Assembly (NCBI RefSeq): GCF_900129375.1
Contig: NZ_FQVN01000002.1
Span: forward strand, 124,001-188,000
DNA: 64,000 bases
Reading direction: 5' to 3'
DNA from: Streptoalloteichus hindustanus
GTDB taxonomy: Bacteria > Actinomycetota > Actinomycetes > Mycobacteriales > Pseudonocardiaceae
Made by a program: the position numbers and the translations under genes. Positions 19,093 to 24,069 of this stretch are shown here, piece by piece (the first letter of the stretch is position 1; each line of letters opens with the position of its first letter). Under the pieces are notes generated by a model. That model was not told where the DNA came from. It worked only from the letters and a program-made list of their open reading frames with translations, and ran no database searches.

Positions 19093-19611
19093 TCACATCG
19101 GGGGCCAGGGCTCGTAGATGCCGTGCGCGAGGAGCCAGGCGCCGAGGTCGTGCCGGTGCCGGCTGATCTCCTCCAGCGTGCGGTGGATGGTGCGCAACGC
19201 GAGGTCGGCGTCACCGGGCCGCAGGACCTGGCCGGCGATCGCGGCGGCGAACTCCTCGGAGCGGACGATCCGCGCCGAGGTTCCGCCGGGCACGGCCAGC
19301 CCGAGCAGCAGGTCGGTCGTCCGCCAGGTGCGCGAGTCCCGTTGCACGCGCACGGCGGTCAGCACCGTCGGGCCACCCCTGGCGTGTCTGGACCGCGGCC
19401 GCTGGTGGGTCAGTCGCAGCCCCGTCTCGGGGAGCAACCAGGTGACCTCGGAGTCCGCGAACGGATCCTCCGGGGTGGGGTACTCCATGCGGAGGCCCCA
19501 CGGTTCCACCTGGCAGGTCCTGAGGTGGCGACTGCTGCCCGAGGAGTAACTGCGTTCCGCCGTCAGGGTGTCCACGATGTCGACCAACTGCGGAGTGATG
19601 ACCGCGCCCAC
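19093..19611 (-). CDS. DUF402-like protein, first of two paralogues
   Basis: A protein of 172 residues related to the next gene. The shared layout is an early VEPWGLRMEYP segment, a WLLPETGLRLTHQR strand and a C-terminal helix pair (LALRTIHRTLEEISRHRHDLGAWLLAHGI). This resembles the DUF402/FomD-like fold, whose members include nucleoside diphosphate hydrolases, but the catalytic acidic residues are not clearly kept here. GTG at 19611 is preferred because TACGCT (19620-19625) lies 8 nt upstream, a leaderless arrangement. It runs convergent to coaE. Function unknown. Confidence 0.65.
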   Translation of the reverse strand: MGAVITPQLVDIVDTLTAERSYSSGSSRHLRTCQVEPWGLRMEYPTPEDPFADSEVTWLLPETGLRLTHQRPRSRHARGGPTVLTAVRVQRDSRTWRTTDLLLGLAVPGGTSARIVRSEEFAAAIAGQVLRPGDADLALRTIHRTLEEISRHRHDLGAWLLAHGIYEPWPPM

Positions 19612-19865
19612 GCGGCCTGAGCGTAGCGGTGAGTGTGCGAGGGGTGACCACTCGGGTCGATTCGTTACATCACGGCTTCCCGGCGGTGCCGTATCGATCG
19701 GGTCGCGGCCACCCGGTCGAACCTGATCGGCGGTTGACGCCCGCTGCTCCGTGTGGCTGAGCGCCGGTTGGACGTTCGGCGGGGCGAACGGGGCGAGCGG
19801 GGCGATCTGGCGCGGGTGCGGCGCGGGTGGACGCGCCCACCCGCGGAAGCCCGCCACCGATCGGA

Positions 19866-20441
19866 TCAGCCGCGCCGTCGCTGGCTGCGCCAGCGCAGGG
19901 TGACGCCGTGCTCGGCCAACCAGGTGGGCAGGTCGTAGCCGCAGCGGGCGATCCCCTCCACCGTGCGGTAGGTCCGCTCCATCGCCCGTCGGGCGGTGTC
20001 CGGGTCGAGCAGCCCCGCGCCGACCGCGGCCAGCATCTCGTCGGAGTCCAGCACCTCCAGCTCGCGCCCGGTCCGGACGATGAGGTCGAGGTAGTGGTCG
20101 GTGCTCGTCCAGCGCGCGCCGCTCACCGCGATGTCGACGATGTCGACGTAGTAGTCCTGGTCGCGTTCCTGGCCCGGCAGCCAACGCCAGTCGGTGACGC
20201 GCAGGCCCAGCCGGGGCAGCAACCAGGACTCCACGTAGTCCATGCGCGGGTGGTCGACGATCCGGCGCGCCATGTACAGCCCGAACGGCTCCACGCGGTA
20301 CTCGTCGACCCGCCGGACCACACCCTTCGGGTCCGTGTTGGTCATCGCCGCGACGTCGAAGACCTCGACCTTGGGCGGGTGGATGTGGCTGGCCATGTCG
20401 TCGCCGGCCCCGGTGTCCTCGTCGGCAGCGCTGAGCGTCAC
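19866..20441 (-). CDS. DUF402-domain protein, second paralogue
   Basis: A protein of 191 residues. The core VVRRVDEYRVEPFGLYMARR, WLLPRLGLRVTDWRW, YYVDIVDI and TDHYLDLIV follows the DUF402 pattern (acidic residues on the inner strands that can hold a divalent metal). The C-terminal helices resemble those of the neighbouring paralogue. GTG at 20441 is chosen: TAGGGT (20449-20454) ends 7 nt before it and no Shine-Dalgarno exists, so the mRNA is probably leaderless. A phosphatase-type activity on nucleotides is possible by family analogy only. Confidence 0.72.
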   Translation of the reverse strand: MTLSAADEDTGAGDDMASHIHPPKVEVFDVAAMTNTDPKGVVRRVDEYRVEPFGLYMARRIVDHPRMDYVESWLLPRLGLRVTDWRWLPGQERDQDYYVDIVDIAVSGARWTSTDHYLDLIVRTGRELEVLDSDEMLAAVGAGLLDPDTARRAMERTYRTVEGIARCGYDLPTWLAEHGVTLRWRSQRRRG

Positions 20442-20563
20442 GGGCCGAACCCTACGCACTCCCGCCGCGGCCCGACCGGTCGAGATAGCCCGGACGAGTG
20501 ATCACGGTGGCTAGGATCTCCGCCACGTCGGCGTCGCGGTCGTCGGCGTGGGGGAGGGGGACC

Positions 20564-21847
20564 GTGTTCGGCATCATCCGGCCCTGCCGGAACCGACTTT
20601 CCGACTCGTTGCGAACGGCGTGGCTCGCGCACCTGTGCGGGCTGTGCCTGGCGCTGCGGGACGACCACGGGCAGCTCGCCCGGCTGGTCACCAACTACGA
20701 CGGGCTCGTGGTGTCGGCGCTGGTCGAGGCGCAGGCCGGCCAGCGGGGCCGCCGGCGCTCCGCCGGGCCGTGCGCGCTGCGCGGCATGCGGGGCGCGGAC
20801 GTCGCGCGGGGCGAGGGCGCCCGGCTGGCGGCGGCGGTGTCGCTGGTGCTGGCCTCGGCGAAGGTCGACGACCACGTCGCGGACGGCGACGGCCTGTTCG
20901 CCCGCCGACCCGTCGCCGGGTCCGCGCGCGTGGTCGCCCGGCGCTGGGCGGAGCAGGGAGCCAGGACCGGTCGCGCGGTCGGTTTCGACACCGCCGTGCT
21001 GGTGGACGCCGTGCGGCGGCAGCAGGACGTGGAGCGGGGCGCGCGTCTCGGCACCTCGGTGCTCGACGTGACCGAGCCGACCGAGACGGCGACGGCCGCG
21101 GCGTTCGCGCACACGGCGGTGGTGGCCGGGCGTCCGGGGAACCAGGACGCGCTGGCCGAGGCCGGGCGGCTGTTCGGCCGGGTCGCGCACCTGCTGGACG
21201 CCGTCGAGGACCTGGCGGAGGACGAGCGCCTCGGCGCGTGGAACCCGCTGCTCGCCACGGGCACGGACCTCGCCGAGGCTCGGCGGCTGTGCGACGACGC
21301 GGTGACCGGTGTCGCGCTGGCGCTGAAGGACGCCGAGTTCATCGACGACGAGCTCGTGCACGCCCTGCTCGTCCACGAGCTCCAGCACGCCGTTCGTCGC
21401 GTCTTCGCTCAGGTGGGCCCGCCTGGCCAGCCCGGCCAGCCCGGCCAGCCCGGCCAGCACGACTCGACGTGCCCCGTGCACGACCGCCCTGATGACCAGA
21501 GGCGGGCGACTGAGGGGCTCTCGGAGCAGCCACCGGGTCCGGACGGCCCGCCTCCGCCGGCACCGCCCGCGCCACCGAAGTCGCCCCGGCACGCGCTGCG
21601 CGATGAACCTGAGCGCAGGTGCCTGTGCTGGCGTTGGCCGAAGCTCACCAAGCCTCCCACCACCCGGGGCCTCGTGGTGGGTTGTTTCGCGCTGCTCTAC
21701 GAGTGCGGCACGTGCCAGCAGTGCCTCCGCGACCCCTTTCCCGGAGCGTGGACGGGCAAGTGGCGGGTGTCGTGCGGCAACGGCTGTGACTGCGGCACGT
21801 GCGACTGCGGCCAATGCGACTGCTGCTGTTGTCCCTGTGACTGCTGA
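20564..21847 (+). CDS. DUF5685-like protein with extreme Cys-rich tail
   Basis: A protein of 427 residues. The N-terminal region opens with [12 protein letters not shown] and [20 protein letters not shown], the Cys pattern I associate with DUF5685. A long helical middle (about 40-285) has [14 protein letters not shown] near its end. A Gly-Gln-Pro repeat and a Pro-rich linker follow. The end is a tail in which 12 of the last 24 residues are Cys, after a [16 protein letters not shown] segment. The tail could bind several metal ions or be heavily cross-linked. The function is not known. The GTG start has a clear GGGAGGGGG upstream. It is divergent from the DUF402 pair and upstream of uvrB. Confidence 0.75.
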
Positions 21848-21915
21848 GGGCGGGGTCCGGACACGTTTGCCACGTTCGCCCGAGTTTGTCGGCCGACCGG
21901 CCTACTCTCGAAGAC

Positions 21916-24069
21916 GTGTCCGACGCACTGGTGAAGGCCCGCTCCGAGTTCCGTCCGATCAGCGAGATTCCGCGCGCGGACGGCCGGTTCCGGGTGGTCA
22001 GCGACTACCAACCGGCCGGTGACCAGCCACAGGCCATCGCCGAGCTCGAACGGCGGGTCCGGGCGGGGGAGCGGGACGTCGTCCTGCTCGGCGCGACCGG
22101 TACCGGCAAGTCGGCCACGACCGCGTGGCTGGTCGAGCGGCTCCAGCGGCCGACCCTGGTGATGGCGCCGAACAAGACGCTGGCCGCGCAGCTCGCCAAC
22201 GAGCTCCGCGGGTTCTTCCCCGACAACGCGGTTGAGTACTTCGTCAGCTACTACGACTACTACCAGCCCGAGGCGTACGTCCCGCAGACCGACACCTACA
22301 TCGAGAAGGACTCCTCGATCAACGAGGACGTCGAGCGGCTGCGGCACTCGGCCACGATGAGCCTGCTCACCCGGCGGGACGTGATCGTGGTGGCCTCGGT
22401 GTCCTGCATCTACGGCCTGGGCACGCCGCAGGAGTACCTGGACCGGTCGATCCACGTCCAGAAGGGCGTGGAGATCGAGCGCGACCTGCTGCTGCGGGCC
22501 CTGGTCGACGTCCAGTACACCCGGAACGACCTGGCGTTCGCCCGCGGCACGTTCCGGGTGCGGGGCGACACGGTCGAGATCATCCCGGCCTACGAGGAGC
22601 TGGCGGTCCGGGTCGAGTTCTTCGGCGACGAGATCGACCGCCTCTACTACCTGCACCCCCTGACCGGCGACATCGTGCGCGAGGTTGACGAGCTGCGCAT
22701 CTTCCCGGCCACTCACTACGTGGCCGGTCCCGAGCGGATGGAGCGCGCCATCCGGGGCATCGAGCAGGAGCTGGCCGACCAGCTCGCCCGGCTGGAGAAG
22801 CAGGGCAAGCTCCTGGAGGCGCAGCGGCTGCGCATGCGCACGACCTACGACATCGAGATGATGCGCCAGGTCGGGTTCTGCTCGGGCATCGAGAACTACT
22901 CCCGGCACATCGACGATCGGGCGCCGGGCACCGCTCCCGCGACGCTGCTCGACTACTTCCCCGAGGACTTCCTGCTCGTCGTTGACGAGTCGCACGTGAC
23001 GGTGCCCCAGGTCGGCGGCATGTACGAGGGCGACGCGTCGCGGAAGCGCACGCTGGTCGAGCACGGCTTCCGGCTGCCCAGCGCGTTGGACAACCGCCCG
23101 CTGACCTGGGAGGAGTTCCAGGACCGCATCGGCCAGACGGTGTACCTGTCGGCGACGCCGGGGCCGTACGAGATGACCCAGGCCGGCGGCGAGTTCGTCG
23201 AGCAGGTCATCCGGCCGACCGGGCTGGTCGACCCCGAGGTCGTGGTGAAGCCGACCGAGGGCCAGATCGACGACCTGGTGCACGAGATCCGGGTGCGGGC
23301 CGAGCGGGACGAGCGGGTGCTGGTCACCACGCTGACCAAGAAGATGGCCGAGGACCTGACCGACTACCTCCTCGAACTCGGCATCCGGGTGCGCTACCTG
23401 CACTCCGAGGTCGACACGCTGCGCAGGGTCGAGCTGCTGCGCCAGCTGCGGCTGGGCGAGTTCGACGTCCTCATCGGCATCAACCTGCTGCGCGAGGGAC
23501 TGGACCTGCCCGAGGTGTCCCTGGTGTCGATCCTGGACGCCGACAAGGAGGGCTTCCTGCGCAGCGGCACCTCGTTGATCCAGACCATCGGCCGGGCGGC
23601 GCGCAACGTCTCCGGCGAGGTCCACATGTACGCCGACAAGATCACTGACTCGATGCGGCACGCCATCGACGAGACCAACCGCCGTCGCGCGAAGCAGATC
23701 GCCTACAACGAGGAACGCGGCATCGACCCGCAGCCGCTGCGCAAGCGGATCAGCGACATCCTCGACCAGGTCTACTCCGAGGCGGAGGACACCGAGAAGG
23801 TCGAGGTCGGCGGGTCCGGGCGGGCCGCGACCCGCGGCAAGAAGGCGGCCGGCGAGCCGGGCGCGCCGCGGGGCAGCTCGGGCGTGCTGGCCGAGCGGAA
23901 CGTCAAGGGCATGGCGCGGGCCGAGCTCGCGGACCTGGTCCAGCAGCTCACCGACCAGATGATGAACGCCGCCAGGGAGCTCCAGTTCGAGCTGGCGGCC
24001 CGGCTCCGCGACGAGATCGCCGACCTCAAGAAGGAGCTGCGCGGGATGGACGCCGCGGGCGTCAAGTAA
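21916..24069 (+). CDS. uvrB: UvrABC excinuclease subunit B
   Basis: A protein of 717 residues. Walker A is GATGTGKSA (59-67), the beta-hairpin is [20 protein letters not shown], Walker B is LLVVDESH and the helicase C motifs [14 protein letters not shown]-type and QTIGRAARN are present. The UVR domain is at the C-terminus ([20 protein letters not shown]). It verifies DNA damage with UvrA and recruits UvrC. GTG at 21916 is chosen because TACTCT (21903-21908) ends 7 nt upstream, indicating a leaderless mRNA, and [11 protein letters not shown] begins family homology; a TTG at 21886 is the alternative. A lysine/glycine-rich linker before the UVR domain is typical of actinobacteria. Confidence 0.97.

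Follow-up and report, generated by a model that had tools for sequence, protein, structure and literature searches.

DUF5685, a protein family with a predicted isoprenoid-synthase fold, appears to be paired with a fused or a separate cysteine string

ComQ, ChrPC and PalQ provide a precedent for an isoprenoid-synthase fold acting on a peptide (PMC13290415 and PMC5331326). According to PMC13290415, a 2026 review, all characterized trans-isoprenyl diphosphate synthase-like peptide prenyltransferases, these three included, act on tryptophan, and the acceptor thiol of the eukaryotic protein prenyltransferases is activated by Zn2+; PMC5331326 describes the aspartate motifs of class I enzymes. Here we compare with these systems a protein of the DUF5685 family that is encoded in a 64,000-nucleotide stretch of Streptoalloteichus hindustanus DNA (assembly GCF_900129375.1, contig NZ_FQVN01000002.1, positions 124,001 to 188,000; hereafter the window) and that ends in a dense string of cysteines. 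What is new in this analysis is the predicted isoprenoid-synthase fold of DUF5685, in residues 6-281, and what appears to be a pairing of this domain with a cysteine string, either in cis or in trans. In the literature that we searched, DUF5685 was named in a single paper, within a list of domains; SCO1748 and SCO5967/SCO5968-type names brought up no paper, and none of the titles listed dealt with the DUF5685 gene or with bacterial cysteine-string J proteins.

The gene lies at 20564..21847 on the forward strand and encodes 427 amino acids plus the stop codon, which ends at 21847. We take the GTG at 20564, which is preceded by a purine-rich stretch, as the start because the MFGIxRPC N-terminus is conserved in relatives. 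The product matches the Pfam family DUF5685 (PF18937) over residues 1-235 with 72 bits against a cut-off of 26.7, which bears out the DUF5685-like identity proposed in a first-pass annotation of this DNA, and a search of the own genome found a single copy. Cysteine accounts for 24 of the 427 residues, and translation of the reading frame verified the earlier count of 12 within the last 24 (21773..21844, ending in C-D-C), the binomial chance of 12 or more among 24 residues being 2e-18 at 1% Cys. The GQP repeat and Pro-rich spacer that had been described before the tail are both present, the repeat at 21425..21457 marking the start of the linker, and a hydrophobic Cys module at 21656..21772 directly precedes the string.

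A single scan of genome contigs gave at least 486 relatives, of which we used the 79 best loci; because the ranking was by similarity to the full query, tailed proteins are favoured in this set. Among the resulting 80 proteins (the window protein and the 79 loci), 77 contain the module GC...TC[QK].CC and behind it a Cys-rich end, the longer consensus of the same 77 being RG..AGC......[CG]TC[QK].CC.DP..GPWSG and then an end rich in Cys, Asp and Gly. The three exceptions are L101, in which the end of the contig cuts the gene, and L050 and L065, both with a different internal Cys cluster, the C-terminal end of L065 being CCNPCKCCCDCCD. A second, evenly drawn sample is free of the tail-ranking bias; it covers 396 Actinomycetota genomes, and DUF5685 is present in 24. 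Here all 15 intact copies of the window's class have a Cys-rich end, with 8-16 Cys in the last 30 residues, and none of the 8 copies from another Actinomycetota class has one (a truncated remnant, G043, was counted apart from these 15 and 8). Thus the possibility that the tail is absent or unconserved in close relatives, which the first-pass annotation had named as fatal to its proposal, is contradicted by both samples. Of 60 genomes in the family of the window, which we take for Pseudonocardiaceae, 24 carry a DUF5685 gene. Some genomes of that family (G411, G422 and G449) have two such genes in tandem.

The number and spacing of the tail cysteines vary (9-23 per tail, median 18, n=77) while their density stays constant; in the alignment of relatives suggested earlier, exact Cys spacing is not conserved. 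In 27 close pairs, 457 of 527 Cys positions (87%) were preserved, compared with 837 of 1213 positions (69%) that hold other residues. Cys is the terminal residue in 56 of the 79 complete sequences, and 52 of the 79 end in C-x-C, kinship being ignored in both counts. A profile of the tail module matched 13 of the 396 genomes, always in the DUF5685 gene, when the best 15 candidates or fewer per genome were scored. We therefore rejected plain repeat expansion as the origin of the tail, given that Cys columns are better kept in close pairs and that all 13 profile matches among the candidates scored are DUF5685 genes. The profile misses G051 and G151. Since a Cys-rich end without the hydrophobic module is seen in L012 (from G151) and in L203, a copy on a Nocardia plasmid, it is the string and not the module that is the constant part. 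Two of the four actinomycete matches in a plasmid collection were fetched, and both have Cys-rich ends of their own; one, L202, has 12 Cys in the last 30 residues. L202 (NZ_LT559118.1) is an 11.85-Mb Nonomuraea record filed as a plasmid in PLSDB; judged by size, it is surely the chromosome. Also among the records, L056/L066 pair one named Rhodococcus rhodnii with Kibdelosporangium aridum at 94% identity over ~10 kb; gene order is also largely shared, and the former is probably mislabelled. The order of a Gly/Pro-rich linker and then a short hydrophobic segment with cysteines is shared with the CYSTM module (PF12734), which gave weak matches in 4 of 47 aligned members (best E 0.00098) and no match in the window protein or in 10 isolated tail modules.

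The second Actinomycetota class, that of genome G272, which we take for Coriobacteriia by inference from its genes, has the string on another protein. In 6 of 8 loci examined there, DUF5685 is followed by a gene for a J-domain protein and this in turn by an Hsp70 gene, and the C-terminus of the J protein is a hydrophobic string rich in Cys, for example ICCGIWCCGPTLCRFIGF. The J domain (PF00226) was found in all four J proteins scanned, and all 13 J proteins counted have 5-9 Cys in the last 30 residues. DUF5685 occurs in 9 of 119 genomes of this class, and the C-terminal part of the J protein strongly matches the same 9 (E<=4.1e-24), all with a Cys string; 10 further genomes match weakly (E>=3.0e-6), with alignments that stop before the string, and in the 3 of these 10 that were read there is no Cys end. 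The two genes are adjacent in 7 of the 9 genomes (6 read directly, G513 by coordinates), and are 1.4 Mb apart in G175 and on different contigs in G261. For a random draw, the chance of hitting the identical 9 genomes would be 1e-13, or 1e-7 for 5 of 68 genera, figures that relatedness makes less extreme than stated. When the J-end profile was run on the 396 Actinomycetota genomes, scoring the best 10 candidates or fewer per genome, the 8 genomes with tail-less DUF5685 matched at E<=8.5e-44 and the other 388 never below 1.2e-10; altogether 87 genomes matched at E<=0.001, the weak ones mainly over a part resembling tetratricopeptide repeats (TPR).

Eukaryotes have a cysteine-string protein, DNAJC5, which is palmitoylated by DHHC enzymes. 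The bacterial J proteins resemble it in having a J domain, a C-terminal cysteine string and an Hsp70 partner, and differ in their TPR-like middle and their link to DUF5685; the homology considered here is that of the J domain.

The same arrangement recurs outside Actinomycetota. A tblastn search with tail-less DUF5685 found two Bacillota records in a plasmid collection and four fecal scaffolds (plasmid and phage collections), of which L204 and L205 were counted with Bacillota from sequence alone. In all four intact Bacillota cases (L200, L201, L204, L205) the DUF5685 gene is directly followed by the J gene, with 5-9 Cys in the last 30 residues. In a control search the family was also found in Thermotoga maritima, so that its spread takes in Streptomyces and relatives, the second Actinomycetota class, Bacillota and Thermotoga, and a scan of viral contigs that used an alignment of tail-less DUF5685 found no relative. 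Directly upstream of DUF5685, L204 (2077-2487) and L205 (401-796) have a small membrane-protein-like open reading frame (ORF) with a C-terminal zinc-ribbon-like CPxC...CPxC, which may belong to the DUF5685 system. The scaffolds L204-L207 (MT835652, MT835850, MT835749, MT836096) are filed as UNVERIFIED Bacteriophage sp. from fecal samples and read like pieces of bacterial chromosome, with genes that we take to be an aminotransferase, a folylpolyglutamate-synthase-like and an S1-domain-like gene. The Pusillibacter stretch has ispD at seven and ispF at six genes upstream, which we considered too little to count. From these distributions we conclude that the DUF5685 domain is, in all likelihood, functionally tied to a cysteine string, present in cis in one set of lineages and in trans in the other.

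To predict the structure, we used AlphaFold2 on the window protein with 46 relatives (alignment A2, comprising 46 of the 79 loci and the window protein, all 47 of which match the DUF5685 profile; alignment A9 comprises 38 loci and the window protein), and built a second model of the domain alone. In the full-length model 231 of 427 residues have a predicted local distance difference test score (pLDDT) of at least 90. Ten-residue means are at least 87 over residues 11-60 and 81-280, 68-69 over 61-80, 37-58 in the linker (residues 291-360) and 72-87 over residues 361-400, which hold the Cys module; the tail is poorly modelled, with pLDDT below 50 for residues 406-427 and below 40 for the last 17. 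The domain-only model has a mean pLDDT of 91.6 and a predicted template modelling score of 0.90. With VIA, the best match of both models was 4jxy (Z 21.8 and 21.4, 243 residues aligned, root-mean-square deviation 2.6-2.7, 14% identity), and all of the 50 matches listed per run are isoprenoid-synthase-type enzymes. According to the tool, 14 is the usual top Z for helical models that have no clear relative, and the values obtained here are well above it. Foldseek gave E-values of 7.9e-4 for the full model and 2.5e-4 for the domain, the latter with MoeN5 first, both at probability 1.0. In profile-profile comparison, hhalign against the squalene/phytoene synthases of the relatives gave E 0.18 (probability 0.3%, 19 columns), a DUF5685 stretch aligning with the ARWADEIVDD motif, and against polyprenyl synthases it aligned the second aspartate motif with E 0.0068 (probability 5.6%). 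A sequence search of the PDB returned no relative at E<=1. We hold it as nearly certain, on the strength of these models, that the main domain of DUF5685 (residues 6-281, 20579..21406) has an isoprenoid-synthase fold, and the predicted models display both the fold and the two Asp-rich motifs of the isoprenoid synthase type I superfamily.

The residues that are invariant in the 12 intact members that we aligned from three lineages include C25, G26, C28, D46, C70, D103, E157, D212, A213, D216, D220 and N227. Class I isoprenoid-synthase enzymes bind Mg-diphosphate at aspartates on helix ends. In DUF5685 the first aspartate motif, D103-H-V-A-D107-G-D109 (20870..20890), falls in the model at the end of helix 84-107, and the second, D212-A-V-E-D216-L-A-E-D220 (21197..21223), at the end of helix 191-215, so that D103/D107 and D212/D216 would stand at or just beyond the ends of two long helices. 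These motifs read D103xxxD107 and D212xxxD216xxxD220 and are hence of the DxxxD and not the DDxxD type; D107 is E in L011. A second invariant set, formed by C25 and C28 of the C25-G-L-C28 motif (20636..20647), C70 (20771..20773, in a loop with pLDDT 68-77) and D46, is a possible metal site and, by analogy with the eukaryotic protein prenyltransferases, a putative thiol-activating one.

Two diverged DUF5685 paralogues, at L206:2492-3367 and L207:2501-3370, bear on the role of this set. The L206 copy still matches the DUF5685 profile with 109 bits; in the alignment both are without C25, C28, D46, C70 and D216, and tblastn found no J gene in the fetched stretches around them. Downstream of each stands a gene akin to the membrane-protein gene found after the J gene in L200 (Subdoligranulum), with E 3e-41 and 2e-44. 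Within the fetched stretches, then, the Cys3/Asp set and the nearby string partner are lost together in L206 and L207. It is improbable, in our estimate, that DUF5685 is a prenyl transferase or terpene synthase for small molecules, with the Cys module and string serving only to dock the domain or the J protein to a membrane. MoeN5, the top Foldseek match of the domain, reportedly prenylates a small phosphoglycolipid precursor, and the module does contain a brief hydrophobic run (best 15-residue hydropathy 1.8 on average); however, 9-23 cysteines are excessive for a simple anchor, the joint loss of J gene and Cys3/Asp set would be left unexplained, and by eye no biosynthetic neighbours recur in actinomycetes.

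The Hsp70 gene that in 6 of 8 tail-less loci follows the J gene, together with the invariant Cys3/Asp set, also fits an assembly system for iron-sulfur or thiol-redox chemistry, in which DUF5685 would be the scaffold or client of the J protein and Hsp70, much as HscB/HscA work on their scaffold, and the string would carry iron, sulfur or electrons. We judge this a long shot, since a scaffold has no need of class I aspartate motifs, no Hsp70 is annotated in the Pusillibacter stretch, and tblastn of the local actinomycete stretches L027-L114 found neither a J nor an Hsp70 gene near DUF5685.

Common to both arrangements are a Cys string and an isoprenoid-synthase-fold domain with an intact Cys3/Asp set, and a domain that acts on the string is the simplest account of the cis/trans pattern. 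As to the chemistry, we consider it plausible, though somewhat short of probable, that DUF5685 is a divergent class I enzyme of isoprenoid-synthase fold whose acceptor is the cysteine string, and that the reaction is S-prenylation. Mg2+ on D103/D107 and D212/D216/D220 would hold the prenyl diphosphate, the acceptor thiol would be activated by a metal ion (probably Zn2+) bound at C25/C28/C70 (and D46), and one or more cysteines of the string would be S-prenylated, so that the string would serve as a membrane anchor. The Gly/Pro linker of actinomycetes, being flexible, would let the tail reach the active site in cis, and in the other lineages the string of the J protein would be modified in trans, yielding a bacterial analogue of the cysteine-string J protein. 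Cys prenylation would explain each of the invariant residue sets. As a proposal from predicted fold, conserved residues and gene association, S-prenylation is our best guess. DUF5685 would resemble ComQ, the P domain of ChrPC and PalQ in its predicted fold and in being genetically linked to a polypeptide with a conserved C-terminal feature, and would differ from them by the invariant Cys3/Asp set and the Cys strings. In DUF5685 the conserved C-terminal feature is the Cys string; as Trp is present in many tails (GPWSG, GIWCC), a Trp may conceivably be the acceptor.

Several observations weigh against S-prenylation or against the fold and pairing on which it builds. Like trans-isoprenyl diphosphate synthases, squalene/phytoene synthases and MoeN5, DUF5685 has the predicted fold and two aspartate motifs; unlike them, it has an extra Cys set and a Cys tail, is only ~14% identical, lacks in its alignment the GGKxxR of the aligned polyprenyl synthases, and in 47 members gave no match to a Pfam isoprenoid-synthase family (including PF00348 and PF00494) at E<=10, a threshold at which HMMER filters drop most weak matches. 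The Foldseek E-values are modest, and the hhalign support is weak, although the aligned positions fall at the aspartate motifs. According to PMC5331326 the second motif of ComQ is degenerate; DUF5685, in contrast, retains its aspartates. The loop that holds C70 is modelled with lower confidence. The Bacillota sample comprises 6 loci, only 5 genera of the G272 class hold the DUF5685/J pair, and the absence of the J protein from actinomycetes rests on local stretches and on the best 10 candidates or fewer per genome.

The composition of the actinomycete tail is a further point of this kind. Cys makes up 49.5% of its terminal part, Asp 21% and Gly 13%, and bulky residues are few; so Cys/Asp-rich and hydrophilic a tail fits metal binding no worse than lipidation. 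Exact Cys spacing varies among relatives, as would be expected of a disordered metal binder, in keeping with the low pLDDT of residues 406-427. The tail, and likewise the J string, could thus bind Zn, Cu(I), Cd or Fe to store, sense or deliver the metal, perhaps to the Cys3/Asp site, and the domain could produce or bind an isoprenoid that serves some other role. With metallothioneins the tail has in common its Cys density and its C-x-C and C-C pairs, and differs from these small stand-alone proteins in being Asp-rich, Lys-poor and attached to a 427-residue enzyme-like protein with a folded domain. We regard such a metal role, the main rival to S-prenylation, as rather unlikely: it leaves the constant partnership with an isoprenoid-synthase fold unexplained, in the class taken for Coriobacteriia the J strings, unlike metallothioneins, are short and hydrophobic (such as ICCGIWCCGPTLCRFIGF), and no metal gene recurs among the neighbours examined by eye, most of which are unannotated. 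The first-pass annotation had left the tail as either a metal holder or a target of modification; because of the predicted isoprenoid-synthase fold and the J-protein partner of the tail-less relatives we favour the target of modification over a plain metallothionein, metal binding as such being the less likely of the two.

The genomic surroundings of the window gene were described earlier as lying between DUF402 paralogues and uvrB. A gene with a PF04167 match (52 bits) does lie divergently at 19866..20459 on the reverse strand, and uvrB follows downstream at 21886..24069 on the forward strand; the supposed second paralogue, an ORF at 19093-19632 (reverse strand), is only DUF402-like, with 32% identity to its neighbour (E 3e-23) and no Pfam match. 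When 92 stretches were clustered, 32 had uvrB and a DUF402-like gene, 34 had beside DUF5685 a gene that we take from its sequence to be SepF-like, and none had both. Gene names other than DUF402, uvrB and those printed in the records are likewise taken from the sequence. As the neighbours change in this way, we rejected a link of uvrB or DUF402 to DUF5685: among the 92 stretches the gene has no constant neighbour, and the uvrB/DUF402 setting means little. For SepF, the accessible portions of papers on SepF2, SepF3 or SCO1749 (PMC3781837, PMC10771440, PMC8748795) make no mention of the DUF5685 gene.

Should S-prenylation hold, bacteria would attach isoprenoids to cysteines in their own proteins, a new variant beside the peptide prenyltransferases of this fold that act on tryptophan, and would possess cysteine-string J proteins. 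In its widest form, which we advance with considerable doubt, this would be an unrecognised bacterial cysteine lipidation, in which a zinc-activated S-prenyltransferase of isoprenoid-synthase fold works on whole strings, either its own tail or a J co-chaperone. It would amount to an independent bacterial invention of two eukaryotic features, Cys prenylation and the cysteine-string protein. Even with another chemistry, the cis/trans pattern gives this uncharacterised domain a partner that can be put to the test.
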